Of a DNA stretch of 36,221 bases, positions 471-16,783 are shown piece after piece. This DNA is from Spirochaetota bacterium (GTDB lineage Bacteria > Spirochaetota > Spirochaetia > Treponematales > UBA12059). The stretch is taken from NCBI GenBank assembly GCA_003247225.1, contig QKAK01000219.1:1-36221 (forward strand), written 5' to 3'. Positions within the stretch are counted from its first letter, which is position 1, and the number at the start of each line of letters is the position of its first letter. The notes below the pieces were generated by a model. The model did no database searches. It was not told where the DNA came from and was given only the letters and a program-made list of their open reading frames with translations. The translations under genes and the position numbers were made by a program.

Positions 471-2792
471 ATGCACGGATGTAACGCAGGTATGAAGCAG
501 GTCGACGAGGAAACCAGGGAGATACTCGATTCGTTCATCGCCGAAGCGCTCGAACGCCTGGACGAGGCGGAAGACGCTCTCTCGAAGCTCGCGGACGGCG
601 GCGACGCCTCCGGCCTCGGCTCCGTTTTCAGGCTCTTCCACTCGCTCAAGGGGAGCGCGGCGTTCCTGGACCTGGATAGTATCCGAGGCCTGACCCACGA
701 GGCCGAGACGCTCATCGATTACTACGTCAAGGCCGAGCGTCCCCCGTCGCAGGAGAGCCTCGATATCGTCTACCAGACGATAGACCTGCTTCGAGCGCTC
801 GTGGGGCGGGTGCAGGCGAGCTACGGCGACGATGGGCGCGAGGACGCCGTCGCGGCTCAGGTCGCCGCGATCAGGGCGAACGTCGAGGCCTCGAGGGCGG
901 ATGGATCGGGCTCCGCGCCGGAGCCGGCCCCCGAAGCCGAGCCGGCGCCTGAAGCCGATCCGGCGCCTCCGCCCGAGCGCCTGAACGAGATAGTCCTCAA
1001 CGAGCTCGTCACGCGGGACATGACCGAGCGCTTCCTGGCCGAGAGCCTCGACCTCGTCGACCGCTTGGAATCGGGCGCGCTCGGGCTGCTGTCCGCCCCC
1101 GATCCGGCGGAGAGCGTCCACTCGATGTTCCGCGCGGTCCATACGATCAAGGGCAACGCCGGGTTCTTCGGCTACGGCCTGCTCGAGGGGCTATGCATGG
1201 AGGCGGAGGCCTTCCTGGACCGATGCCGCAAGGGCTCGACCGCGCCGAACGAGGCGTTCGTCAACGGGGCGCTGTCCCACGTCGACGCCCTGAACCGGGC
1301 CATGGCCTCGGTCTCGATCGTCGAGGGGGGCTACGGGGGCGATAGCGGCGCTGAAGGGAAGGGACCGGCCTTCCCGGCCCCCGCCGAGGCGTCGGCTGCC
1401 CCCGCCGGCGGCGCCGCGTATAAGCCCATCGGCGAGATACTCGTCGAGATGGGCGCGGCCGACCAGGAAGCGGTACGGCGGGCGCTCGACCAGCAGGAGA
1501 AGCCGCTCGGCGAGCTGCTGGTAGACAGCGGCGCGGCCACGCGCGAGGCGGTGGCCAGCGCCCTGGAGATCCAGCGCGGTATCGAGGCCAGGCCCGCCGC
1601 CCCGGCGGCCCGGGGAGAGGAGCTCCAGCGGCGCGACGTGCGCGTCGATACCGCCAAGCTCGACAAGCTGTTCGACCTCGTCGGCGAGCTGATCACGGCG
1701 GAGGCCATCGTCGTCAACAGCCCGGACCTCAAGGGGCTCCGGCTCGACCACTTCCAGAAGTCGTTCAACGCGCTCAACAAGATCTCCAGGGAGATCCAGG
1801 AGACCACGATGGTCATCCGGATGATCCCGATGGAGGGGCTCTTCAATAAGATGACGCGCCTGGTCCGCGACCTGTCGAGGAAATTCGGCAAGCCGGTCGA
1901 TTTCCGCGTATCCGGCCAGGAGACCGAGATGGACAGGAACGTCATCGAGCAGATCTCCGACCCGTTGGTGCATATCCTCCGCAATTCCATAGACCACGGG
2001 CTCGAGTCGCCGGACGGGCGCGGGGCCGCGGGCAAGCCGGCGACCGGCGTCGTATCCCTGGACGCCAGGTACGAGGGCTCGGAGATATGGGTCAGCGTCA
2101 AGGACGACGGCAAGGGCCTCGACCGCGAGGCGATACTCGCCAAGGCGGCGGAGCGCGGCCTGCTCAAGGCCGACCCGGCTACCATCGAGGACCGAGACGC
2201 CTGGAACTTCATCTTCGAGCCGGGCTTCTCCACGGCCAAGGTCCTGTCCGAGGTGTCCGGCCGCGGCGTGGGGATGGACGTGGTCCGCAAGAACCTCGAG
2301 CGCATCAGGGGGGCGGTCGACGTGCGCTCGACGCCGGGGCAGGGCACCGAATTCGTACTGCGCATACCGCTGACGATGGCCATCATCGAGGGCATCACGG
2401 TGCGCGTCGGCGATAGCTCCTACTCGATCCCGCTATCGGACATCCTGGAATTCTTCCGCGCCGCCCCCGGCCAGCTGACGCTCGCCGCCGACGGGACCGA
2501 GACGGTCAACCTTAGGGGCGACGTCCTGCCGCTCGTCAAGCTGTGGCGGGTGTTCGGCGTGTCCGGCGCCGCCGAGCGGCCGGAGGACGGCATACTGCTC
2601 GTCGTCAAGGCCGGCGGCCGCAAGGCGGCGCTGCTGATCGACGAGGTCGTCGGCAATCAGCAGATCGTGATCAAGTCCCTTTCGGAGTATCTCGGCAAGA
2701 TAGACGGCCTATCGGGCTGCTCGATACTGGGGGACGGGACGGTAAGCTTCATAATCGATACGGGCAAGCTGTTGTCCGCCGTACTGGAATAG
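471..2792 (+). CDS. cheA: Chemotaxis histidine kinase CheA with two Hpt domains
   Basis: CheA takes signals from receptors via CheW, autophosphorylates on an Hpt histidine and passes phosphate to CheY and CheB. The 773-residue product has two Hpt domains, with phospho-acceptor histidines at about H57 (FHSLKGSA) and H224 (VHTIKGNAGF). A low-complexity Ala/Pro linker separates them. A doubled IGEILVEMG...LGELLVDSG segment at about 317-373 resembles the N-terminal domain of type II secretion/pilus ATPases. Then come the dimerisation helices (about 390-450), the ATPase domain with N-box (HILRNSIDHGLE), DDGKGLD and GRGVGMDVV motifs, and a C-terminal CheW-like domain. I see no classical CheY-binding P2 domain. 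ATG 471 is chosen because of the TAGAAT box 5 bp upstream; ATG 492 is possible. It is the first gene of the chemotaxis operon. Confidence 0.95.
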   Translation: MHGCNAGMKQVDEETREILDSFIAEALERLDEAEDALSKLADGGDASGLGSVFRLFHSLKGSAAFLDLDSIRGLTHEAETLIDYYVKAERPPSQESLDIVYQTIDLLRALVGRVQASYGDDGREDAVAAQVAAIRANVEASRADGSGSAPEPAPEAEPAPEADPAPPPERLNEIVLNELVTRDMTERFLAESLDLVDRLESGALGLLSAPDPAESVHSMFRAVHTIKGNAGFFGYGLLEGLCMEAEAFLDRCRKGSTAPNEAFVNGALSHVDALNRAMASVSIVEGGYGGDSGAEGKGPAFPAPAEASAAPAGGAAYKPIGEILVEMGAADQEAVRRALDQQEKPLGELLVDSGAATREAVASALEIQRGIEARPAAPAARGEELQRRDVRVDTAKLDKLFDLVGELITAEAIVVNSPDLKGLRLDHFQKSFNALNKISREIQETTMVIRMIPMEGLFNKMTRLVRDLSRKFGKPVDFRVSGQETEMDRNVIEQISDPLVHILRNSIDHGLESPDGRGAAGKPATGVVSLDARYEGSEIWVSVKDDGKGLDREAILAKAAERGLLKADPATIEDRDAWNFIFEPGFSTAKVLSEVSGRGVGMDVVRKNLERIRGAVDVRSTPGQGTEFVLRIPLTMAIIEGITVRVGDSSYSIPLSDILEFFRAAPGQLTLAADGTETVNLRGDVLPLVKLWRVFGVSGAAERPEDGILLVVKAGGRKAALLIDEVVGNQQIVIKSLSEYLGKIDGLSGCSILGDGTVSFIIDTGKLLSAVLE

Positions 2793-2833: not shown

Positions 2834-5590
2834 ATGAAGATCCTAGGCAAATTATTGGTCGGCTTCCTGGCCGTCGCGACGCTATGCGCCGTGGTCGGGC
2901 TGTCGGGCGTCAGCAACCTGCGCGACCTGAGGGGCTCGCTCGTCACGATAACCGACGAGACCATACCGTCGCTGCACCGGCTCGAGAGCCTCGAGAAGGA
3001 GCTGCTCGTCGTCAAGGTGGCGCTTCGGAATCTCGCTAATCCGTTCGTATACGAGGACGAGGAACTCGCCGAGAGCCAGTTCGCGAACATCGAGCGGGCG
3101 CGCGAAGTCTATAGGCCGCTGCTGCAGGAACTGGATAGCAAGGCCATGGTTCCCGAGGAGGCCGCGCTCTGGGAGGGCGTGAACGACAGGCTCGCCATCA
3201 CGGTCTCCTACACCGACCGCGTCATCAAGTCCGCCCGCGCCATCCTCGGCGCCGACGATCCCGAGACCCGGGCGGCGATGCTGCGGGAGCAGTACGCCTT
3301 CGTCTTCGGCGAAGGGCGCCTGGTGCTGGACGAGTTCATCGCGAGCGTCGACGAGCTCCTCGAGTACGACCAGGACCTGTACGGGCGCCGTATGGCCGCC
3401 GATAGCGTCGCCGCGACGTCGACCGCCACGCTGGCCCTGCTGGGCCTGACCGTCGCGGCGTTCGTCGTGGCCGTCGCCCTCGGCGTCGTCCTGGGGCGAT
3501 CGATCAGCGGATCGCTTCGCAAGGTCGTACTGACGCTCGACCGCATGGCCGCCGGCGACCTGTCGCAGAAGCTGGAGATCAGGAGCCGCGACGAGTTCAT
3601 GCAGGTCCGCGAGTCCGTCGGCACCGTCCAGGAGACCGTCGAGGCCATCATCGCCGAGACCGGCAGGATAGCCGACCATATCGTGTCGGGGCGGCTGACC
3701 GAGCGCGCCGATCCGACCCGGTTCAAGGGCAAGTACAACGAGCTGGTATGCGGCGTCAACGAGACGGTCGAGGCGATGGTCGGCTTCATCGAGGCTATCC
3801 CGATGCCGGTGATGGCGATAGACAAGGATTTCCGCGTCATCTTCATGAACAAGGCGGGCGCGGCCCTGGGCGGCGCCACCGGCGAGCAGCTCGTCTCGGC
3901 GCGCAGGCAGTGCAGCGAGCTGTTCCGCACCGGCGACTGCAAGACCGAGGACTGCGCCTGCGCCAAGGCGATGCAGATCAACGGCCAGGCGCAGTCGCAG
4001 ACCGAGGCGAGGCCCGGCGCTCACCGCCTCGACATCGACTACATCGGCGTCCCCATCCATGACCGCCAGGGCGCGGTCGTCGGCGCGCTCGAGATCGTGA
4101 TCGACCAGACCGCCGTCAAGGCGGCCCAGCGCACGATGGAGAAGGTGAGCGCGTACCAGGGCGCGGAGATAGAGCGGGTCACGAGGAACCTCGGAAAGAT
4201 AGCGGCCGGAGACCTCGGCTGCGACTTCGAGCTGGCGGAGGCCGACGAGGATACCGCGCAGGTGCGCGAGCGCTTCGCGACGATACGGGACGCGCTCAGG
4301 GCGTCGGTCGACGCGATCCATTCCCTCGTCACCGACGCCGACACGCTGGCCCAGGCCGCCGTCGACGGCCGCCTCCAGACCAGGGCCGACGCCGCCAGGC
4401 ACCGCGGCGACTACCGGAAGATCATCGAGGGCGTCAACCGGACGCTGGACCTGGTCATAGCCCCGGTGAACGAGACCATAGAGATCCTGAAGCGCATGGC
4501 CGAGGGCGACCTGACCTCGGAGATGACCGGCGACTTCAACGGCGACTTCGACGTGCTCAAGTCGGCCATCAACGAGACGCTCGCGTCGATCAACGAGCTG
4601 CTCGGCCAGGTTACCCTGGCCGTCGAGCAGGTGGCCGCCGGTTCGCAGCAGGTGTCCCAGGCCAGCCAGGCGCTGTCGCAGGGAGCGACCGAGCAGGCCA
4701 GCTCCCTCGAGGAGATCACCTCGTCGATCACCGAGATAGCCGCCCAGACCAAGCGGAACACCGACAGCGCCGTCGAGATGAACGGCCTGGCGATGTCGGC
4801 CAGGGACGGCGCCGAGCGCGGCAACTCCCAGATGAGCGAGCTCGTGTCGGCGATGAGCGACATCAACAGCTCCGCCGAGGAGATCCGCAAGATAGTCAAG
4901 GCGATAGACGACATCTCCTTCCAGATCAACCTGTTGGCGCTCAACGCCAACGTCGAGGCGGCGAGGGCCGGTAAGTACGGCAAGGGCTTCGCCGTCGTGG
5001 CCGAGGAAGTGCGCAACCTGGCCGTCCGCTCGGCCGGCTCGGTCCAGGAGACCACCAAGATGGTCGACGACGCGATCGCCAATATCGCCAGGGGCAACGG
5101 GCTCGTCGACGTGACCGCCAAGCAGCTCCAGGAGATAGTCGGGGGCTCGGCGAAGGTAGCCGGCCTGTCCGAGGAGGTATCGACGGCCGGCAAGGAGCAG
5201 TCCCAGGGGCTCGACCAGATCAGCACCGGCCTGACGCAGATCGACCAGGTTACCCAGGCGAACACCGCCAGCGCCGAGGAGAGCGCCAGCGCCGCCGAGG
5301 AGCTGTCGAGCCAGGCGCAGCAGCTCAAGGCCATGCTCTCCAGGTTCAAGCTGCGGGCCAGGGAGGCCCGGCTGACCGACGAGGACGTGATGCGCATGCT
5401 GCAGTCGGAGATGGGCAGGCGCGGGCTTTCGAGCCGGTCGGGCATCACGCTCAGGCGCGACGCGGCCCCGGCCCCGGCTCCGACGCAGGCCGTAGCCAAG
5501 AAGCCGGCTATCGCCGCTAGGGCCGCGCGCGCGCCGATCAATCCCGCCGACGTTATAGCGCTGGACGACGATGACTTCGGGAAGTTCTAG
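2834..5590 (+). CDS. Methyl-accepting chemotaxis protein with HAMP repeats and Cys-cluster PAS domain
   Basis: This transmembrane receptor of about 918 residues controls CheA. The start at ATG 2834 is fixed by AAGGAGG ending 5 bp upstream; the open frame extends further 5' into cheA but without support. Order: membrane helix 1 (about 7-27), a helical periplasmic region like a four-helix bundle, membrane helix 2 (about 198-222), HAMP, further HAMP-like segments, a PAS domain (about 310-440), more HAMP-like repeats, and the cytoplasmic signalling hairpin with its conserved tip ([13 protein letters not shown]). The PAS domain carries C360, C369, C374 and C376 (C-x8-C-x4-C-x-C), which may bind a metal or cofactor or sense redox state. 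The tail is a flexible Ala/Pro linker ending in DDDFGKF, possibly a docking tether for CheR or CheB. It lies 41 bp after cheA. Confidence 0.93.
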   Translation: MKILGKLLVGFLAVATLCAVVGLSGVSNLRDLRGSLVTITDETIPSLHRLESLEKELLVVKVALRNLANPFVYEDEELAESQFANIERAREVYRPLLQELDSKAMVPEEAALWEGVNDRLAITVSYTDRVIKSARAILGADDPETRAAMLREQYAFVFGEGRLVLDEFIASVDELLEYDQDLYGRRMAADSVAATSTATLALLGLTVAAFVVAVALGVVLGRSISGSLRKVVLTLDRMAAGDLSQKLEIRSRDEFMQVRESVGTVQETVEAIIAETGRIADHIVSGRLTERADPTRFKGKYNELVCGVNETVEAMVGFIEAIPMPVMAIDKDFRVIFMNKAGAALGGATGEQLVSARRQCSELFRTGDCKTEDCACAKAMQINGQAQSQTEARPGAHRLDIDYIGVPIHDRQGAVVGALEIVIDQTAVKAAQRTMEKVSAYQGAEIERVTRNLGKIAAGDLGCDFELAEADEDTAQVRERFATIRDALRASVDAIHSLVTDADTLAQAAVDGRLQTRADAARHRGDYRKIIEGVNRTLDLVIAPVNETIEILKRMAEGDLTSEMTGDFNGDFDVLKSAINETLASINELLGQVTLAVEQVAAGSQQVSQASQALSQGATEQASSLEEITSSITEIAAQTKRNTDSAVEMNGLAMSARDGAERGNSQMSELVSAMSDINSSAEEIRKIVKAIDDISFQINLLALNANVEAARAGKYGKGFAVVAEEVRNLAVRSAGSVQETTKMVDDAIANIARGNGLVDVTAKQLQEIVGGSAKVAGLSEEVSTAGKEQSQGLDQISTGLTQIDQVTQANTASAEESASAAEELSSQAQQLKAMLSRFKLRAREARLTDEDVMRMLQSEMGRRGLSSRSGITLRRDAAPAPAPTQAVAKKPAIAARAARAPINPADVIALDDDDFGKF

Positions 5591-5603
5591 GAAGGGGGAG
5601 ACC

Positions 5604-6134
5604 GTGACGGAAGCCGTACGGCGCGACGCCCGGGACGACCTCTTCATCGACGACGCCGAGGACGAGGATACCCAGGCCAATAAGTACATGTTCTTCAGGA
5701 TAGCCGGGGAGTCGTACGGCATAGGCATCCGCCATATCCTGGAGATCATCGAGCTGCAGCGCATATCCCAGGTGCCGGACATGCCCGCCTACGTCAAGGG
5801 CGTCATCAACCTGCGGGGCAAGGTGATCCCGGTCGTCGACCTGCGCCTGCGCTTCGGCCTGCCCGAGAGGGCCTACGACGACCGGACCTGCATCGTGGTG
5901 GCCGATATATCCGGCGCTACGATAGGCTTCATCGTCGATACGGTCGAGGAGGTCATCGAGATACCCGAGGCCCAGGTGGAGGAGGCTCCCAGGTTCCGCT
6001 CCCAGTCGGGCAAGGACCGGTACATCTCGGGCATGGGCAAGGTCGGGGAGGACGTGAAGATACTGCTCGACGTCGAGGCACTCGTCCGGGACGACGACGC
6101 GCGCGCCATCGCCGAGGCCGGGCGGGAGCCGTGA
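5604..6134 (+). CDS. cheW: Chemotaxis coupling protein CheW
   Basis: CheW links receptors to CheA in the signalling array. The 176-residue product has the CheW fold after a short acidic N-terminal extension: YMFFRIAGESYGIGI, then ILEIIELQRISQVPDMPAYVKGVINLRGKVIPVVDLRLRFGL, then IGFIVDTVEEV. The start is taken as GTG 5604 because GGGGGAG lies just upstream; an in-frame ATG at 5571 would overlap the receptor gene and has no ribosome site. The stop overlaps the GTG start of cheR (GTGA), which suggests coupled translation. Confidence 0.93.
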   Translation: MTEAVRRDARDDLFIDDAEDEDTQANKYMFFRIAGESYGIGIRHILEIIELQRISQVPDMPAYVKGVINLRGKVIPVVDLRLRFGLPERAYDDRTCIVVADISGATIGFIVDTVEEVIEIPEAQVEEAPRFRSQSGKDRYISGMGKVGEDVKILLDVEALVRDDDARAIAEAGREP

Positions 6135-6976
6135 GCGACGTCCTGCTGCCGCTCCGCGACGGCGACTTCCGGTTCGTATCCGAGCTCGTCTACGCCCGGT
6201 TCGGCATACGCCTGACCGACCAGAAGCGTAGCCTGGTCGCCGGAAGGCTATCGAAGCGGGTGCGCCAGCTGGGCTTCTCATCGTTCACCGAGTACTTCGA
6301 CCTACTGCGGACCGCCGGCGGGGCGGACGAGCTGTCCGAGCTGATAGACCGCGTCACGACCAACCACTCGTTCTTCTTCAGGGAACGCGACCACTTCGAC
6401 GCGCTATCGCGCGAGATCCTGCCGTCCCTGATCGGCGGATCGGCCCGTAGCGGTTCGCCCGTCCGTATCTGGAGCGCCGGCTGCGCCGCGGGCGAGGAGC
6501 CGTACACGATAGCGATGCTGATCTCGCAGGCGATGTCCAGGACGCCGGGGGCCGGCTCCGTGGACGCGGGCGTGCTGGCCACCGACATCTCGATGGCCGC
6601 CCTGCTCGAGGCCAAGGCCGGCGTCTACGCGGAGTCCAAGCTCCGGGAGCTGCCCAGGGAGTTACGATCGCCGTACCTGAGGCCCGCCGGCCCCGACGCC
6701 TGGTCCGTATCGCCCGCGGTGCGGTCGCTGGTACTGTTCAAGCGGCTCAACCTGATGCGCGAGCCCTATCCGTTCAAGTCGCGCTTCGACGTGGTGTTCT
6801 GCCGCAACGTCATGATCTACTTCGACCCGCCGTCGCGCGCGAGGCTCGTCGAGTCGATCTATCGCGTGGTCAAGCCCGGAGGATGGTTCTTCATAGGCCA
6901 TTCCGAGAGCCTGCCTCGCGAGTCGTGCCCGTTCGCCTACGTACGGCCGGCCACGTACCGGAAGGAAGGCGCTTGA
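6131..6976 (+). CDS. cheR: Chemoreceptor glutamate methyltransferase CheR
   Basis: CheR methylates receptor glutamates using S-adenosylmethionine, giving adaptation together with CheB. The product is 281 residues, typical of the family. The N-terminal helical domain (FRFVSELVYARFGIRL) precedes the methyltransferase domain with the SAM-binding loop WSAGCAAGEEPYTIAML and the conserved FDVVFCRNVMIYFD and VKPGGWFFIGHSES segments. The GTG start overlaps the cheW stop, and the stop overlaps the parA-like ATG by one base. Confidence 0.95.
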   Translation: MSDVLLPLRDGDFRFVSELVYARFGIRLTDQKRSLVAGRLSKRVRQLGFSSFTEYFDLLRTAGGADELSELIDRVTTNHSFFFRERDHFDALSREILPSLIGGSARSGSPVRIWSAGCAAGEEPYTIAMLISQAMSRTPGAGSVDAGVLATDISMAALLEAKAGVYAESKLRELPRELRSPYLRPAGPDAWSVSPAVRSLVLFKRLNLMREPYPFKSRFDVVFCRNVMIYFDPPSRARLVESIYRVVKPGGWFFIGHSESLPRESCPFAYVRPATYRKEGA

Positions 6977-7818
6977 TGGGCCCGTCGCTCAGGAGCCTCG
7001 GATACAGGATAGTCGCGATAGCCAACCAGAAGGGAGGCGTCGGCAAGACGGTCACCGCGCTGAACCTGGCCGCCGGGCTGGCCAGGGCAGGCCAGCGCGT
7101 GCTGGTCGTGGACGGCGACCCGCAGGGCAACCTCACGCTGATCCTGGGGCGGCGGCCCGTTCCCGCCGCCGGGGACTCTGGCGACGGGAACGGCGCCCCT
7201 TCGAGGGCGCGCAGGCCGGCGCCCCGCGACCTGGCGGGCCTGTTCGGCGCGATAGCCGCCCGGGAGCGCGTGCCCGTCTCCGATTTCATCGAGAAGGGCG
7301 TGCGGCGCGGGCTCGACCTGCTGCCGTCGCGCAATCGGCGCATGAGGCTGGAGCTCGGCGACTCGGACATACTGGCCGCGGCCCCGGGCTTCGCCTCGCT
7401 CCTGTCCAGGCTCGCCGAGCGCTACGACTGGATCGTCGTCGACACGTCGCCGTCCAACGGTCCGCTGGAGCGAGCCCTGATAGCGGCCTGCCAGGCCGTC
7501 GTCATACCGCTCGAATTCCAGCTGTTCTCCGTCTCCGGCCTCGAGGCGATCCTGGCGGAGGTGCGGGAGTGCGCGGCGGCGTTCGGGCGGGAGATCCGGG
7601 CCCACGCGCTCGTCTTCGTGAAGGCGGAGAACAAGGTGGGCCGCGTCGAGGAATATCGCAGGGTGTTCTCGAGGTTCAGGACGCCCGTGTTCGAGATATG
7701 CAAGTCGGAGTACGTCCCTCGCTCGATCGAGCGCCGCAGGACCCTCTGGGAAGCCGCTCCGGCGAGCTACGCCGCGCGCGACTACGCGCGGATCATAGAC
7801 ACGTCCTTCTTGGGGTAA
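6976..7818 (+). CDS. ParA/MinD-family ATPase of the chemotaxis operon
   Basis: This is a ParA-type P-loop ATPase of about 280 residues. The deviant Walker A motif is NQKGGVGKTVTALNLA, the Walker A' region is VLVVDGDPQGNLT, and the Walker B region is DWIVVDTSPSN. The N-terminus lacks the helix-turn-helix of large plasmid ParA proteins. Known chemotaxis-linked relatives (ParC, PpfA) position or segregate chemoreceptor arrays. Its place between cheR and cheB, overlapping cheR by one base and 4 bp before the next gene, suggests such a role by inference. ATG 6976 is preceded by GAAGGAAGG; the frame extends 5' into cheR but that start is not supported. An insert of about 30 residues rich in Gly, Ala and Arg follows Walker A'. 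Confidence 0.88.
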   Translation: MGPSLRSLGYRIVAIANQKGGVGKTVTALNLAAGLARAGQRVLVVDGDPQGNLTLILGRRPVPAAGDSGDGNGAPSRARRPAPRDLAGLFGAIAARERVPVSDFIEKGVRRGLDLLPSRNRRMRLELGDSDILAAAPGFASLLSRLAERYDWIVVDTSPSNGPLERALIAACQAVVIPLEFQLFSVSGLEAILAEVRECAAAFGREIRAHALVFVKAENKVGRVEEYRRVFSRFRTPVFEICKSEYVPRSIERRRTLWEAAPASYAARDYARIIDTSFLG

Positions 7819-7822
7819 CGAG

Positions 7823-8371
7823 ATGGCAAAGAAGACGAACGAGGCGCTCGAGCGAGAGCGGATGGCCGAATCGATCGCGATGAAGCTGCCGGCCGACTCC
7901 GGCGGCTACTCGCTGTCCGCGGCCACGGCCGGTCCCCTACGGCGGGCGCTGCGCGGGGTTTGGGCGGTGGCCTTCCACGAGGTCGGCGGGGAGCCGTTCG
8001 TGGATCGCGTCGCGGCCCGAAGCCTCAAGGGCGCCGCGCTCGCCGATATAGCCTATAGGGCCCTGTACGATTTCAAGGATTCCTTCTGCGTGAAGCGCGT
8101 CGATATCGACGGCACGGCCGAGCTGCCCGGAGGCGGCGTCCCGTACGGATTCAGGCAGCGCCTGACGCTCTCCTGGGACCTCGAGGGGGCCGAGCGCCTG
8201 CGGGTCCGCCCCGAGATGGGCTACCAGTGCACCTCGCTCGACGGGGCGCCCGCGGCCGTCAAGGAACTGGAGCCGGGCTCGGACGACCAGCTGATCCTAT
8301 TCAGGCTCGACGGGGACGAACTCGTTCTCGAGGAGGGCGACGACGTCAAGCGCCTGAGGAGGCTCGCGTGA
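7823..8371 (+). CDS. Unknown 182-residue protein between parA-like gene and cheB
   Basis: I do not recognise a family. The product begins with a charged helix (MAKKTNEALERERMAESIAMKL), continues with a mixed region containing RRALRGVWAVAFHEVGG, and ends in strand-rich acidic sequence (DDQLILFRLDGDELVLEEGDD). There are no membrane helices, no signal peptide, and no CheW-like or AIF-type domain that would mark it as ParP. The ATG follows the parA-like stop by 4 bp and its TGA overlaps the cheB GTG, so it should be made together with both. A partner of the ParA-like ATPase or a chemotaxis accessory protein is a reasonable guess from context only. Confidence 0.8.
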   Translation: MAKKTNEALERERMAESIAMKLPADSGGYSLSAATAGPLRRALRGVWAVAFHEVGGEPFVDRVAARSLKGAALADIAYRALYDFKDSFCVKRVDIDGTAELPGGGVPYGFRQRLTLSWDLEGAERLRVRPEMGYQCTSLDGAPAAVKELEPGSDDQLILFRLDGDELVLEEGDDVKRLRRLA

Positions 8372-9459
8372 GCGCGGTCCGGCGAGTCCGCGCGCTCATC
8401 GTCGACGACTCGGCGATCGCGCGGGACCTGCTCGAGCGGGGGCTGTCGCTCGACCCGGGTATCGAGGTGGTCGGCAAGGCCTCCGACGCGTACTCGGCGC
8501 GCGACAAGATCGTGTTCCTGAAGCCGGACGTCGTCACGCTGGACGTCGAGATGCCGAAGATGGACGGCCTAGCCTTCCTGCGCAAGCTGATGCCGCAGTA
8601 TCCGCTGCCGGTCATCGTGGTGTCGGCCGTGACGGCGGAGGGATCTCGGAAGGCCCTGGAGGCGCTCGAGGCGGGCGCCTTCGATATCGTCGCGAAGCCG
8701 AGCGCCTACGACGCGTTCGGCCTGAAGGCGATGGTCGCCGAGCTGGCCGAGAAGGTCAAGGCGGCGGGCCGGACCGAACCGGGGAAGATACGCCCGCTCG
8801 CCGGAGGCCTGGCGCGGCCGAGCCCGAGCGCCGGCCGCCCCGCGCACGACCGACGCTTCCGAGGCCGGCCGGTCGGGAAGGTCATAGCGCTCGGCGCCTC
8901 CACCGGCGGCACGGTGGCGCTGTCCAAGGTGGTCACGGCCCTGCCGGCGGACTCGCCGCCCGTGCTCATAGTGCAGCACATGCCGCCGGTGTTCACCAGG
9001 ATGTTCGCCGAGTCGATGGATCGCCAGTCGGCCGTCCGCGTCAAGGAGGCCGAGGACGGGGAAGAGCTCGAGCGCGGTACCGCCCTCGTCGCCCCGGGGG
9101 ACCTGCACCTGACCGTGGTCCGGTCGGGCCGGCGGCTCGAGGCGCGGCTCGACGACGGGCCGAAGGTCAGCGGGCACAGGCCGTCGGTCGACGCGCTGTT
9201 CCTGTCGGCGGCCGAGGCCGTCGGCCCTGACGCCGTGGCCGCCCTGCTTACCGGCATGGGACGGGACGGCGCCGACGGGATGCTGGCGCTCAGGCGATCG
9301 GGGGCGCGCTGCGTAGCCCAGGACGAGCCGAGCTCCGTCGTGTTCGGCATGCCCAGGGAGGCGTGGGAGAACGGGTCGGCCGAGACGCTGGTGCCTATCG
9401 AGCTGATGGCCCGCGAGATCATGGCCAGGGTCGGCGCCCGGGCCGCCGGGAGGGCGTGA
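8368..9459 (+). CDS. cheB: Chemotaxis methylesterase/glutamine deamidase CheB
   Basis: CheB removes receptor methyl groups and deamidates receptor glutamines when phosphorylated by CheA. The 363-residue product has an N-terminal receiver domain (RALIVDDSAIARDLL; phospho-acceptor about D59 in TLDVEMPKMDG; the KP lysine in IVAKPSA). A Pro/Arg-rich linker follows, then the methylesterase domain with the catalytic triad regions LGASTGG (Ser), VQHMPP (His) and LLTGMGRDGADG (Asp). GTG 8368 is chosen because GAGGAGG lies 5 bp upstream and the start overlaps the previous stop. The cheD ATG overlaps its stop by one base. Confidence 0.95.
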   Translation: MSAVRRVRALIVDDSAIARDLLERGLSLDPGIEVVGKASDAYSARDKIVFLKPDVVTLDVEMPKMDGLAFLRKLMPQYPLPVIVVSAVTAEGSRKALEALEAGAFDIVAKPSAYDAFGLKAMVAELAEKVKAAGRTEPGKIRPLAGGLARPSPSAGRPAHDRRFRGRPVGKVIALGASTGGTVALSKVVTALPADSPPVLIVQHMPPVFTRMFAESMDRQSAVRVKEAEDGEELERGTALVAPGDLHLTVVRSGRRLEARLDDGPKVSGHRPSVDALFLSAAEAVGPDAVAALLTGMGRDGADGMLALRRSGARCVAQDEPSSVVFGMPREAWENGSAETLVPIELMAREIMARVGARAAGRA

Positions 9460-9938
9460 TGGCGATCCTGAACGTCGGCATAGGCGAGTGGAAGGTGTCT
9501 TCCGATCCCCAGGACCTCATCAAGACCTACGCCCTCGGCTCGTGCGTCGCGGTCCTCATCTACGACGCCAGCCTCCGCCTGGGCGGCCTGATCCACGTCG
9601 CGTTGCCCGACTCGACCGTCGACCGCGAGTCGGGCAGGAAGCCCGCCGGCTACTACGCCGACGTCGGCTTGCCGCTGATGATCGAGGAGCTGAAGTCGAG
9701 GGGCGCGGTAAGGGCGCACGTCTGGGTGAAGCTGGCCGGCGGCAGCAGCGTGATGGACGCCGCGGGCCTGTTCGACATCGGCAAGCGCAACATCCTCGCG
9801 GTCAAGAAGCAGCTGTGGCGCAGCACCCTCGGCCCGATCGCCGAGGACGTCGGCGGGGCCATCAGCAGGACCGTCACGCTGGCGGTGGCCGACGGCGGGA
9901 CCACGCTGTCCTCCGGTTCGAGAACCTGGTCTATTTAG
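9459..9938 (+). CDS. cheD: Chemoreceptor glutamine deamidase CheD
   Basis: CheD deamidates receptor glutamines and, in systems with CheC or CheX relatives, can be bound by the phosphatase. The 159-residue product shows the family signature TYALGSCVAV with the catalytic cysteine, GGLIHVALPDS with the catalytic histidine, and the conserved KLAGGSSVMD and IGKRNILAVKKQL segments. It starts with the ATG overlapping the cheB TGA, and cheY follows after 11 bp. Confidence 0.93.
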   Translation: MAILNVGIGEWKVSSDPQDLIKTYALGSCVAVLIYDASLRLGGLIHVALPDSTVDRESGRKPAGYYADVGLPLMIEELKSRGAVRAHVWVKLAGGSSVMDAAGLFDIGKRNILAVKKQLWRSTLGPIAEDVGGAISRTVTLAVADGGTTLSSGSRTWSI

Positions 9939-9949
9939 GGGAGGCGCCC

Positions 9950-10333
9950 ATGAAGGACTTCAAGTCGATCCTGATCGTCGACGATTCGTCGACGTCCCGG
10001 ATGATCGTGCAACGCTGCCTCGAGATGACGGGCCTGGCCGAATGCCGGTTCTCGTACGCCGAGGACGGCCTGAGCGCCCTATCGGCGCTGCGTAAGGATC
10101 CCGGCGCCTACGACCTCATAGTCACCGACCTGAACATGCCCAAGATGGACGGCGTCACGTTCGTGCGCCTCGTCAAGAACGACCCGGCCACCGCTTGGAT
10201 ATCGGTGATAGTCGTCTCGAGCATAGCGGACGGAGGGCTCGAGAGCGAGCTGACGGGGCACGGGGCCGCGGCCGTCATAAAGAAGCCGGTCTCGCCGGCC
10301 AAGCTGGCGGCAGCGATAGGGGGCATTGCGTGA
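9950..10333 (+). CDS. cheY: Chemotaxis response regulator CheY
   Basis: This single-domain receiver of 127 residues carries the CheA signal to the flagellar motor switch. It shows the acidic pair in LIVDDSSTSRM, the phospho-acceptor at about D60 in IVTDLNMPKMDG, the conserved serine in VIVVSS, and the lysine in IKKPVSP. A strong GGGGAGG precedes ATG 9950. The stop overlaps the GTG of cheX, so kinase output and its phosphatase are probably translated together. Confidence 0.93.
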   Translation: MKDFKSILIVDDSSTSRMIVQRCLEMTGLAECRFSYAEDGLSALSALRKDPGAYDLIVTDLNMPKMDGVTFVRLVKNDPATAWISVIVVSSIADGGLESELTGHGAAAVIKKPVSPAKLAAAIGGIA

Positions 10334-10788
10334 ACGACGACGCGGAAGCGATCGAGACGGCCGACGCGCTCTTCAGGGCGACGTCGGAGGTGTTCGCCGG
10401 GATGGTCTTCATGGACGTCTCGAGGGCGGGCGAGGGCGCGGCCGAGACCGGGGAGATAGCGGCCGCTATCGACATACTGAAGCCGCTCTCGTGCAGGCTC
10501 GAGCTGCGCATGCCGAGGGCCCTGTACGCCGGCATCGTCGAGCTCCTCGGCTCGGGCGACGCCGACGCCGCCGACGAGCCGGAGGACGCGGTGCTGGAGA
10601 TGGTCAACGTACTGGCCGGATCGTTCATCAGCGAGCGTTTCGGGCCCGGCGCCGACATGAAGCTGGAGCTGCCCCGCTACCTGTACGGGGAGGACCGGGC
10701 CTCGGGCGTCCCGATCGCCGGCGTCGGCTGCGACGCCGAGGGAGAGCCGTTCTCCGTGCTCCTGACGTCCGTCCGCTACCGATATTGA
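10330..10788 (+). CDS. cheX: CheX-type phosphatase of phospho-CheY
   Basis: The 152-residue product matches the CheX/CheC family that dephosphorylates CheY-P. The catalytic helix reads DAVLEMVNVLAGSF, fitting the D-x3-E-x2-N pattern; a proline follows after 21 residues, one short of the usual spacing. Only one such helix is visible, as in CheX rather than CheC. It is the last gene of the operon, starting at a GTG that overlaps the cheY stop. A strong hairpin follows 14 bp after its stop. No cheZ is seen. Confidence 0.85.
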   Translation: MNDDAEAIETADALFRATSEVFAGMVFMDVSRAGEGAAETGEIAAAIDILKPLSCRLELRMPRALYAGIVELLGSGDADAADEPEDAVLEMVNVLAGSFISERFGPGADMKLELPRYLYGEDRASGVPIAGVGCDAEGEPFSVLLTSVRYRY

Positions 10789-10852: not shown

Positions 10853-11143
10853 TTATTTCTTGTCCTGAACCTTAGATTTTTCCTTGTTTATCTTCTGCTC
10901 GAGCGTATCAATCAGCTTGTCCATCCCCGCCGCCAGGTCGAAGTCCGTCTCCTGCACGTGGGCGCTCGAGCCCCAGCGGAAGTTGACGGTGCATTCGCAC
11001 TTGAACTGCTTCTCCTTGGTGAACGAGAACAAGAGGTCGACGATCAGGTCCTTCGCGTACGCGATGCGCTCAAGCTTCTTGTCCAGGTAAGCCCTGCTCG
11101 GTTCGCCGAGGTCGAAGTGCACGGAACGGACGTCAATAGTCAT
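10853..11143 (-). CDS. hpf: Ribosome hibernation promoting factor, short form
   Basis: This 96-residue protein of the HPF/RaiA family binds the 30S subunit and silences ribosomes in slow growth. The sequence shows the typical start (MTIDVRSVHFDLGEPSRAYLDKKLERI) and the basic C-terminus (INKEKSKVQDKK), without the C-terminal dimerisation domain of long HPF. It follows rpoN by 38 bp on the same strand, the arrangement common in Proteobacteria and others, and has a clear AAGGAGG site before its ATG. Confidence 0.9.
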   Translation of the reverse strand: MTIDVRSVHFDLGEPSRAYLDKKLERIAYAKDLIVDLLFSFTKEKQFKCECTVNFRWGSSAHVQETDFDLAAGMDKLIDTLEQKINKEKSKVQDKK

Positions 11144-11181
11144 GCAAGCCTCCTTGTGCCGGTCGGACCGGCTGATTGCGC

Positions 11182-12555
11182 CTAGCCGCGCTTGCGGCCG
11201 AACGATGAATCCATGTTCAACTCGCTTCGATACTTGGCCACTGTCCTCCTCGCTAATTTAATGCCTTTTCGGGCCAGTATGTCGGTTATGTCCTGGTCGG
11301 ACATCGCGTTCGTCTCGTTCTCGATGATCTCCTTGATCACCTGCTTGACGCCGCCCTTGGAGAACCTCGAGCCGCCGGAGCCGGAGCCGGAGATGCTGTT
11401 CGTGAAGAAGTACCGCAGCTCGTAGATGCCCCAGTCGGTCTGGACGTACTTCTTCCCGGCGATGCGCGAGATGGTCGTCTCGTGGACGCCTACCTCTCCG
11501 GCGATGTCCTTGAGCGTCAGCGGGGCGAGGTACTTGGGCCCCCGCGCGAAGAACGGGCGCTGGAACTCGACGATGGAGCGCACCACCTTGAGCAGGGTGC
11601 GGTTACGCTGCTGGATGCTCTGGATGAACCAGCGCGCCTTGCGGATGTTGTCCTTGACGAAGGCGTCCGTCTCCTTGTCGTGCTTCTCCCCGGATAGCCG
11701 GTCGAAGAACGGGTTGATGCCGATGACGGGTATCTCCTCGTCGTTGATGACGATGACGAACTCGCCGTCCTTGAGCTTGACCTGCACGTCCGGGGTGACG
11801 TACTTGGTCTCCTCGGCCGAGTAGAGCCTGCCGGGGAAGGGGTTCAGCCCCTTGATGAAGCCCAGGGCCGCCTCGAGCTCGTCGTCGTCGAGCTTGAGCC
11901 GCTTCTGTATATCCTGGTGCTTCCCCCGCTCGAGCAGGTCCATGTGATCGCCGATGATCTCCAGCGCCCCGGGAGGAGCGTCCGGGGCCTGCCCGGCCTG
12001 GACGAGCAGCGATTCCCTGAAATCCTCGGTGCAGGCGCCGATCGGCTCCAGGCGGCGGATCACGGCCATCACCTTGTCGACGGCCGCCTTGGAGAAGCCC
12101 TTGCAGAGCAGGTACGGGTCCTCCTTGTGGAAACCGTCGGCGTTCAGGTTCTGGACGAGGCGTTCGCCTATCTCGCGCTGGGACGGGGTGATGGGCTGGA
12201 GCCGGAGCTGCCACAGGAGGTGCTCCTGGAGCGTCTCGGGGTAGGTGATCGCCCCCTCGAGGAACATGCGCTTCGAGTCCGAGTCGTCGTCCCCAGAACG
12301 GCTGTAGCCCGGATCGGAGCTGTTCTCGAAGCGCTGGATGGCCTCCGACTCCGATTCGCGCTCCTCGGGGATGGACTCGAGCGACATCGTGGACCGGTCC
12401 TCGAGCACCTCGAGGGCGGGATTCGCCTCGATCTCCTGTTGTATCTCTTCCTTCAGCTCCTGGAGGGGTAGGGCCATGAGCCTGATGGACTGGATCATCT
12501 GGGGACTGAGCTTCTGCCTCTGTTCCTGGATGATCGATGGTCTCTGGAACTGCAA
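11182..12555 (-). CDS. rpoN: RNA polymerase sigma-54 factor RpoN
   Basis: The 457-residue product directs RNA polymerase to -24/-12 promoters and needs AAA+ activators. Visible parts: the Gln/Leu-rich region I (QEQRQKLSPQMIQSIRLMALPLQELKEEI as separate short motifs), the acidic region II, the core-binding domain, the helix-turn-helix (LTLKDIAGEVGVHETTISRI) and the C-terminal RpoN box (ARRTVAKYRSELNM). The start is TTG 12555 with AAGGA upstream. It is followed by hpf. A target is present in this same window: the -24/-12 promoter before atoE at 33174. Confidence 0.95.
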   Translation of the reverse strand: MQFQRPSIIQEQRQKLSPQMIQSIRLMALPLQELKEEIQQEIEANPALEVLEDRSTMSLESIPEERESESEAIQRFENSSDPGYSRSGDDDSDSKRMFLEGAITYPETLQEHLLWQLRLQPITPSQREIGERLVQNLNADGFHKEDPYLLCKGFSKAAVDKVMAVIRRLEPIGACTEDFRESLLVQAGQAPDAPPGALEIIGDHMDLLERGKHQDIQKRLKLDDDELEAALGFIKGLNPFPGRLYSAEETKYVTPDVQVKLKDGEFVIVINDEEIPVIGINPFFDRLSGEKHDKETDAFVKDNIRKARWFIQSIQQRNRTLLKVVRSIVEFQRPFFARGPKYLAPLTLKDIAGEVGVHETTISRIAGKKYVQTDWGIYELRYFFTNSISGSGSGGSRFSKGGVKQVIKEIIENETNAMSDQDITDILARKGIKLARRTVAKYRSELNMDSSFGRKRG

Positions 12556-12610
12556 GTACGATCCTTTCGTGGCGGCGATACGAGGCGACGGGCGACTACC
12601 CTCGAGCTAA

Positions 12611-12638
12611 ATGGTAAAGCATCGCCGGCCAAAGTCAA
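12611..12638 (-). promoter_or_regulatory. Candidate sigma-70 promoter of rpoN-hpf
   Basis: On the minus strand TTGACT (12633-12638) and TACCAT (12611-12616) are separated by 16 bp, about 55 bp upstream of the rpoN TTG start. The rest of the 12556-12831 intergenic stretch holds the grpE control region. Confidence 0.45.
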
Positions 12639-12722
12639 GCCGCACGATAGGCGGCCAGGGCGCCAGAACCTACAAGAACCGTGCCTATTTTCACGATTAT
12701 TCGCTAAAGAAGGCTCCAAGTG

Positions 12723-12789
12723 GCTTGACGCTTCAAAATCGCCCTTATTACTTTACATGATACCAGCCGCACGGCTCCCAGCGTCAAGC
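12723..12789. promoter_or_regulatory. Inverted repeat and possible promoter upstream of grpE
   Basis: GCTTGACGC at 12723-12731 recurs as its exact reverse complement at 12781-12789, 49 bp apart. TTGACG inside the left arm could serve as a -35 box, with TACTTT 18 bp further as a weak -10. This is not the CIRCE element (TTAGCACTC-N9-GAGTGCTAA) and I find no CIRCE before grpE. A heat-shock regulator other than HrcA, or a chance repeat, are both possible. Confidence 0.3.
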
Positions 12790-12831
12790 GAGTCAGATGA
12801 CCCTGGGGTATCATCATCGTAGAGCGAGGCC

Positions 12832-13521
12832 ATGTCTAAACACAAGCACCAGGATATAACGGAAACGCCGAACGAGGGCCAGGTTACGGATCGACCGACG
12901 GATCAGGAGGCCGGAGGCCCGGCCAGGGCCGAGCCCGATAGCGGCGCCGGGGCCATAGAGGCCAGGGCGACGGCCGCGGAAGAGAGGGCCTCGGCCGCGG
13001 AAGCCAAGGCCGCCGCCGCGGAGTCCAGGGCCGCCGAGCTGGAGGCCGAGGTCTCGTCCCTCAAGGACCAGTACCTGCGCAAGCTGGCCGATTACGAGAA
13101 TTTCCGCAAGCGCATGTTCAGGGAGAAGGAGGACGCGGTCCAGTACGCGAACTCCCAGATACTCGGCGACCTCGTGGCCGTGCTCGACGATTTCGAGCGG
13201 GCCATCAAGAGCTCGGAGCTGTCGAGGGATTTCTCGTCGCTGCACGACGGGGTCGGCATGATCCAGAAGAACCTGCTGTCGACGCTTGCCGGTAAGTACG
13301 GGCTGACCCATTTCGAGTCGGTCGGCGCCGCGTTCGACCCGAACGTGCACGAGGCCGTGATGAGCGAGCCGGGCGACTGCCCCGAGCCGACCGTCGTCGA
13401 GGAATTCATAAAGGGCTACAAGCTGCGCGACCGCGTGCTGCGGAGCGCCAAGGTCAAGGTACGCATGCCCCGCCCGAGCGGGGATTCGAACGAAAAAACC
13501 GCGCCAGAGGCGAAGGCATAA
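12832..13521 (+). CDS. grpE: Nucleotide exchange factor GrpE
   Basis: GrpE releases ADP from DnaK. The 229-residue product has a long charged N-terminal region with Ala/Glu heptads ([19 protein letters not shown]) that form the coiled coil, then the conserved [11 protein letters not shown] segment and the beta domain ([10 protein letters not shown]...[23 protein letters not shown] in part). It is longer at the N-terminus than E. coli GrpE (197 residues). Its start has only a GAGG site close to the ATG. It leads the grpE-dnaK-dnaJ cluster, with dnaK 10 bp downstream; no hrcA gene precedes it. Confidence 0.95.
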
Positions 13522-13531
13522 GGAGCATCCC

Positions 13532-15466
<1,935 letters not shown>

Positions 15467-15487
15467 CCGATCGAATATACAATATGG

Positions 15488-15615
15488 CCACGGAGGCACG
15501 AAGGCACGGAGAAGAGAAAGGTAAGAGAAATGTGAAGAGAGCGAATAAGCATCTGTTTAGATGCTTTCTAAGCTTTCTTCCATTTTCTTACCTCCGTGTC
15601 TCCGCGCCTCCGTGG
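15488..15615. repeat. Palindromic dispersed-repeat element between dnaK and dnaJ
   Basis: The outer arms start with CCACGGAGGC and end with GCCTCCGTGG; over 24 bp, 21 positions pair. Inner sequence continues as imperfect purine-rich/pyrimidine-rich arms, and near the middle AGCATCT-GTTT-AGATGCT forms a small perfect hairpin (15548-15565). Translated, one strand gives the TTEARRHGG-type peptide known as a spurious ORF product of a repeat family scattered through many bacterial genomes. It contains no gene. Because it sits inside a chaperone operon it may fold in the mRNA and affect dnaJ expression. Confidence 0.8.
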
Positions 15616-15640
15616 TTGATTTCGTCGATAAGGACAAACC

Positions 15641-16783
15641 GTGGCTAAGCGAGACTATTACGAGGTCCTGGGCGTGCAGAAGAACGCCAGCAAGGACGAC
15701 ATCAAGAAGGCGTACAGGCGGCTGGCCATCCAGAACCACCCGGACAAGAACCCGGGCGACAAGGCTGCCGAGGAGCGCTTCAAGGAAGCCACGGAAGCCT
15801 ACGAAGTCATGTCGGACGACCAGAAGCGGGCGGCCTACGACCAGTTCGGCTTCGCCGGCGTCGACAGCATGGGCGGCCAGGGCGGCGGCCAGGACTTCAC
15901 CAACATCTACCGGGACTTCGAGGATATCTTCGGCGGCTTCGGCGACTTCTCGAGCATCTTCGACAACCTGTTCGGCGGCGCCCGCTCGTCGGGCGGCGGC
16001 CGCAGGCGCGGCGAGCCGCCGCGCGGATCGAACCTGCGCTACGACCTGGAGCTGAGCTTCGAGCAGGCCGTCTTCGGCGCGACCGTCGAGATATCGTACA
16101 GCCACGACGAGGGCTGCGGCGCCTGCTCCGGCTCGGGCTCCGAGGCCGGCGGCGGCCGCAAGGTCTGCCCGACCTGCCAGGGCTCGGGCCAGGTACGCCG
16201 CAGCTCCGGCTTCTTCTCGATCGCCAGCCCCTGCCCGAACTGCGGCGGCGAGGGCTACGTCGTCGACAAGCCGTGCAAGGCCTGCGGCGGCTCCGGGCTG
16301 ACCAAGAAGAAGCAGAAGCTCAAGGTGACCATCCCGCCGGGCATCGACGACGGCAAGCGCCTGTCGGTACCGGGGCAGGGCGACGCCGGCCAGAACGGCG
16401 GACGGCCCGGCGACCTGTACGTGTTCATCCACGTCAAGCCGCACGAGTTCTTCGAGCGCGACGGCTACGACCTCTACTGCGCCGTGCCCGTCTCGGTGAT
16501 GAAGGCCACGCTCGGCGGCGAGATCACCGTCCCGACGATAGACGGCAAGCGGGTCAAGGTGACCGTGCCCGCCGGCTCGCAGCACGGTAAGATGCTCCGC
16601 CTGCGCGAGGAGGGGGTGCCCGGCGCCGGCGGCAGCGCCAAGCGCGGCGACATGTACATCAAGCTGATGGTCGAGGTGCCGCAGAAGCTGTCGAAGCGCG
16701 GCCGCGAGCTGCTCGAGGAGCTGGTGCGCGTCGAGGGAGACGTGACCGAGCCGAAGCCGATCAGGCTGTCGGACCTGAAGTAG
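15641..16783 (+). CDS. dnaJ: Co-chaperone DnaJ (Hsp40)
   Basis: DnaJ delivers substrates to DnaK and stimulates its ATPase. The 380-residue product has the J domain with the HPD motif (NHPDKNPG), a Gly/Phe-rich linker ([17 protein letters not shown]), four zinc-binding CxxCxGxG-type repeats ([32 protein letters not shown]) and the C-terminal substrate-binding domains. The start is GTG 15641 with AAGGA upstream. A strong hairpin lies 20 bp after the stop. Confidence 0.97.

Follow-up and report, generated by a model that had tools for sequence, protein, structure and literature searches.

The ParA-like ATPase and the 182-residue protein (hereafter X) encoded between cheR and cheB probably form a two-protein intracellular positioning module that, as found in this operon, is dedicated to its chemosensory system, with X acting as an ATPase-activating adaptor. 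X as the partner of this ParA is strongly supported: at all 23 distinct loci pooled over all searches, X lies directly 3′ of parA, an adjacency far above chance that gives the pairing very good genomic support. The chemoreceptor array as cargo is plausible, as judged purely from the gene neighbourhood. In the open-access literature, to which the search was confined, no description of the ParA–X pair was found.

The window, i.e., the whole 36,221-nucleotide stretch of DNA analysed, carries the gene order cheA-mcp-cheW-cheR-parA-X-cheB-cheD-cheY-cheX, with a Pfam match for each named gene (Table 1). The frames are tightly packed: the cheR stop overlaps the parA ATG at 6976 (TGATG), X begins with the ATG at 7823, 4 bases after the parA stop, and the X stop overlaps the cheB GTG at 8368 (GTGA). 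The tight linkage of parA and X between cheR and cheB, described in an earlier note on this DNA, is therefore borne out, with both open reading frames in place on the + strand. The genome has several chemosensory systems, of which this operon encodes one, since at least five CheA matches and one further CheB are present (contigs C73, C123, C137, C170, C135 and C216). The CheW of the operon has an N-terminal extension (window 5571–5690) that is conserved in related operons, acidic in relatives and ends in EDTQANKYLFF. Located 3′ of the che operon (window 10853–16783) are an ORF resembling a ribosome hibernation factor and a sigma-54-like gene on the − strand and, beyond them, grpE, dnaK and dnaJ on the + strand, all named from their translations.

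Table 1. Coordinates of the che operon, of the parts of X and of the X genes outside che operons (L071–L073, positions in those loci).
Feature	Coordinates	Strand	Basis and remarks
cheA	471..2792	+	Pfam; part of parA-X operon
Methyl-accepting chemotaxis protein (4HB, PAS, HAMP, signalling domain)	2834..5590	+	Pfam
cheW	5571..6134	+	Pfam
cheR	6131..6976	+	Pfam; stop overlaps parA start
parA-like ATPase (280 aa, one domain, deviant Walker A motif KGGVGKT)	6976..7818	+	ORF, Pfam
Gene X, 182 aa: basic N-terminus and lipocalin-like β-barrel (modelled); proposed ParA-activating cargo adaptor	7823..8371	+	
X N-terminal basic segment (~residues 1–22), putative ParA-binding/ATPase-activating peptide	7823..7888	+	
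X barrel domain (residues 28–182), proposed cargo- or ligand-binding part	7904..8371	+	AlphaFold2, Foldseek
cheB	8368..9459	+	Pfam; start overlaps X stop
cheD	9456..9938	+	Pfam
cheY	9950..10333	+	Pfam
cheX	10330..10788	+	Pfam
Brevinematales X, L071	8366-9061		
Brevinematales X, L072	8242-9102		
Brevinematales X, L073	8227-9099		

The parA product belongs to the ParA/MinD P-loop class (Pfam AAA_31, E=4e-33; CbiA, 1e-17), in agreement with its earlier description as a single-domain ParA ATPase. Both the deviant Walker A motif KGGVGKT and the motif DGDPQ are invariant in all 19 ParA sequences aligned. MinD and FlhG have a C-terminal membrane-targeting helix, whereas this ParA lacks one and, where its end could be read, stops a few residues past the DYARII..FLG core. 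Conserved basic residues (R223, R228 and R249) would be compatible with nonspecific DNA binding, and with no more than that. By sequence, the nearest solved structures are Soj/ParA proteins; however, the Soj of the same genome scores 104 bits against 410 bits for the operon ParA, so the operon ParA represents a distinct clade. In the ParA tree, families f1, f4 and f5 are interleaved, and the operon has therefore probably moved between lineages.

X has no match to any Pfam or NCBIfam family, and as the earlier note had it, the protein is unrecognised. It is a real gene nonetheless, because homologues of 31–48% identity occupy the same slot in other genomes. A scan of genome contigs with the single protein gave no match, its profile found among PDB sequences only a weak match to AdcA (E=0.76), and the 17-row alignment offers no conserved stretch usable as a scan query. 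Residues invariant across the 17 che-type X proteins include G45, W47, H52, Y78, F84, K91, G133 and Y134, and R111 is near-invariant. When modelled alone from 20 sequences with AlphaFold2, the C-terminal part is predicted with high confidence (pLDDT 94.1, pTM 0.87) as one N-terminal helix followed by nine antiparallel-type strands with one inserted helix, in what the strand list suggests is a meander topology. The best Foldseek matches of this modelled lipocalin-like β-barrel are the lipocalin-like VtrC and ToxS (TM 0.5–0.6, E of at least 7e-3, none under 1e-3), followed by fatty-acid-binding proteins. A weak Pfam Lipocalin_4 match (E=0.049) in 2 of 20 X members agrees with such a fold. Neither X nor its relatives match Pfam CheW, no CheW/SH3-like chain occurs among the 50 structural matches listed for the barrel, and X has no Pfam match to an MCP signal domain; the reported lack of a CheW-like or receptor domain thus holds in these searches.

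Preceding the barrel, the N-terminus of X is charged and non-hydrophobic. Residues 2–8 are basic, with a mean net charge of +1.57 versus −0.24 elsewhere in X (0 of 20000 resamplings), and in the full-length model residues 1–30 are of low confidence whereas the barrel is confident. By the charge test and the low pLDDT of these residues, X possesses the basic, flexible N-terminal peptide that characterizes activating partners. Such a start is not peculiar to X, as the window's CheB and CheW begin basic too.

Surveys at increasing taxonomic depth show the two genes travelling together. Among 59 near relatives, X occurs in six genomes, the window's own included, and this ParA in seven. Across the window's order, X is found in 18 of 394 genomes; each of the 18 has parA-X in the cheR–cheB slot, followed by cheD-cheY-cheX as far as the contigs extend. 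In 393 genomes sampled from the phylum, the clade ParA was found in nine and X in eight of the same nine or their like. The genome of this sample that gave no X match, G025, was ruled out as a ParA lacking X: the first 30 X codons, starting with MGRKKDWSDHALQVGMALDSPERGNDTGGY, are present up to the contig end that cuts the gene. With the C-terminus of ParA as query, about 85,000 species were scanned; this gave 19 loci, all metagenome-assembled, with X after parA in every one. Judged by kinship label or record title, all genomes with the clade ParA belong to Spirochaetota, a contig titled just 'bacterium' being assigned to the window's order in the survey of that order, and all named genomes carrying the pair are metagenome-assembled. 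One metagenome contig with the operon (L085, DYPP01000049) is labelled Treponema denticola (SulCav isolate), a species label that looks doubtful. Twenty of the 23 loci share one che operon type, that of the window, and three lie outside che genes; X is thus not a protein found mostly away from parA and che genes, an outcome that would have told against the earlier proposal. The other che systems of the relatives contain neither parA nor X (24 of 24 loci), and cheR mostly adjoins cheB there. Neither X nor a parA of this clade occurs in the seven remaining genomes from the same genus as the window.

The three exceptions belong to one family (f52), one record of which bears the name Brevinematales. 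There parA-X is preceded by an XRE-HTH/S24 regulator and stands by itself, with proS and further housekeeping genes close by. Here X is 231–290 residues long and has a PomX-like layout, in which a Pro/Glu-rich linker of 60–130 residues separates a basic N-terminus from the barrel domain that the che-type proteins also carry. Searching with an HMM of the che-type N-terminus did not bring up that of the Brevinematales proteins, and we therefore claim no homology between the two N-terminal segments. The Brevinematales ParAs branch separately in the tree, with moderate support (0.82). Other che systems are present in these genomes, whose best CheA is ~41% identical to that of the window, against 61% for an operon orthologue; the same che operon type is absent from them. 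Because the pair occurs here outside che genes, ParA–X is not exclusively a chemotaxis device, and these genomes point to a portable module whose cargo can be exchanged.

Comparison with known systems places ParA–X among ParA-based positioning devices. ParA/MinD ATPases are stimulated by diverse partners through positively charged disordered N-termini, with the rest of the partner binding cargo, and TlpT and McdB are named as probable cases of this basic N-terminal activation (PMC7993993; PMC10241942). The ParC/ParP system, which positions polar arrays in Vibrio, likewise pairs a ParA-like ATPase with an adaptor encoded by an adjacent gene inside a che operon, as is the ParA homologue of our 20 loci, and ParP, in analogy to the arrangement proposed for X, joins an N-terminal ATPase-contact part to a C-terminal cargo-binding part. 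However, the C-terminal AIF domain of ParP is SH3-like and CheW-related (PMC5706961), whereas X has a predicted lipocalin-like barrel and no CheW match, and its gene, unlike that of ParP, lies between cheR and cheB. PpfA/TlpT, which segregates cytoplasmic clusters in Rhodobacter sphaeroides, also combines a ParA-like ATPase with a che-encoded partner of basic N-terminus, but TlpT is a predicted cytoplasmic chemoreceptor and X has no receptor domain. Since a CheW-like or receptor partner, which defines those systems, was searched for and is absent, ParA–X is a member of neither. PomX/PomZ and McdB/McdA resemble it in that their partners, though non-homologous, carry a positively charged activating peptide at the N-terminus, and the Ala/Pro-rich region before the C-terminal domain of PomX is reminiscent of the Pro-rich linker of Brevinematales X; their cargo, however, is the division complex or the carboxysome, and their C-terminal domains are unrelated to X. 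ParA–X is most aptly described as a new class of adaptor in ParA-based positioning, with the same principle and an unrelated cargo-binding fold.

In the mechanism we propose, ParA-ATP dimers would attach to a surface that extends through the cell, nucleoid DNA being the most likely one. X, as the cognate adaptor, would dock its short basic N-terminus on the ParA dimer and stimulate ATP hydrolysis, as known ATPase-activating proteins do. Its C-terminal barrel would bind a chemosensory component, most likely the array core or the adaptation enzymes CheR and CheB, and cycles of ParA binding and release would then place or partition the array. Given the position among che genes, the chemosensory array, or CheR/CheB, heads the list of cargo candidates; we infer the ParA–X interaction, ATPase activation, DNA binding and cargo alike. 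A precedent exists in H. neapolitanus, where a ParA-like protein of a che operon is required for assembly and position of the CheY focus (PMC10241942). The earlier suggestion that X may be a new array-positioning partner is strongly supported as regards partnership with ParA; array cargo is its plausible part, tempered by the Brevinematales pairs.

Several other explanations deserve weighing. ParA–X could be a generic positioning module that was captured into a che operon and whose barrel recruits other cargo, such as membrane, lipid or another protein. The Brevinematales pairs, adjoining an XRE/S24 regulator in genomes without the same che operon type, speak for it, but the che loci place the pair between cheR and cheB across four families, usually in overlapping or near-touching frames, and we consider this reading rather unlikely. 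It is unlikely, too, that X is a co-component sensing device and not a structural adaptor, its pocket binding a small lipophilic molecule and gating ParA or CheR/CheB. The nearest solved folds, VtrC with bile acid bound and ToxS, are lipocalin-like partners whose genes are tightly paired with those of their own partners, and the overlap of the vtrA and vtrC genes (PMC9214523) counts in favour, as do the invariant H52 and K91 and near-invariant R111 of X. Against this, the fold match is weak, and the VtrC and ToxS domains are periplasmic, at odds with the character of the X N-terminus. They also differ from X in sensing together with a ToxR-like transcription factor and show no detectable sequence similarity to it. 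A combined version, in which X is a ligand-responsive adaptor, a lipophilic signal switches the cargo binding of ParA, and the portable pair is re-targeted between cargoes in spirochaetes, strikes us as distinctly doubtful; if it were true, a chemical signal would set array position, or which cargo moves.

The CheW of the operon might instead be the real ParA partner, as proposed for ParC of H. neapolitanus, leaving X an unrelated role. Its N-terminal extension is indeed conserved in the che operons examined; because that extension is mostly acidic in relatives (DDExEDTQANKY), we rate this very low, and outside che operons it is X, not CheW, that accompanies ParA. Least credible is that ParA and X are a partition pair of plasmid or prophage type left behind in the operon: the ParA superfamily is common to plasmid partition proteins, but a plasmid search for X found none, the chromosomal neighbourhoods are conserved, and neither Pfam nor the Foldseek matches listed give X a ParB-like or DNA-binding domain. 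The positioning module with X as activating adaptor remains our preferred reading.

Many ParA/MinD ATPases remain orphans because their partners vary so widely, and the strict pairing reported here links one ParA clade to a protein family not described before. It also suggests that an adaptor with no kinship to CheW or receptors can serve in array positioning, and the che-linked and unlinked pairs offer a natural comparison for which part of the adaptor sets the cargo.
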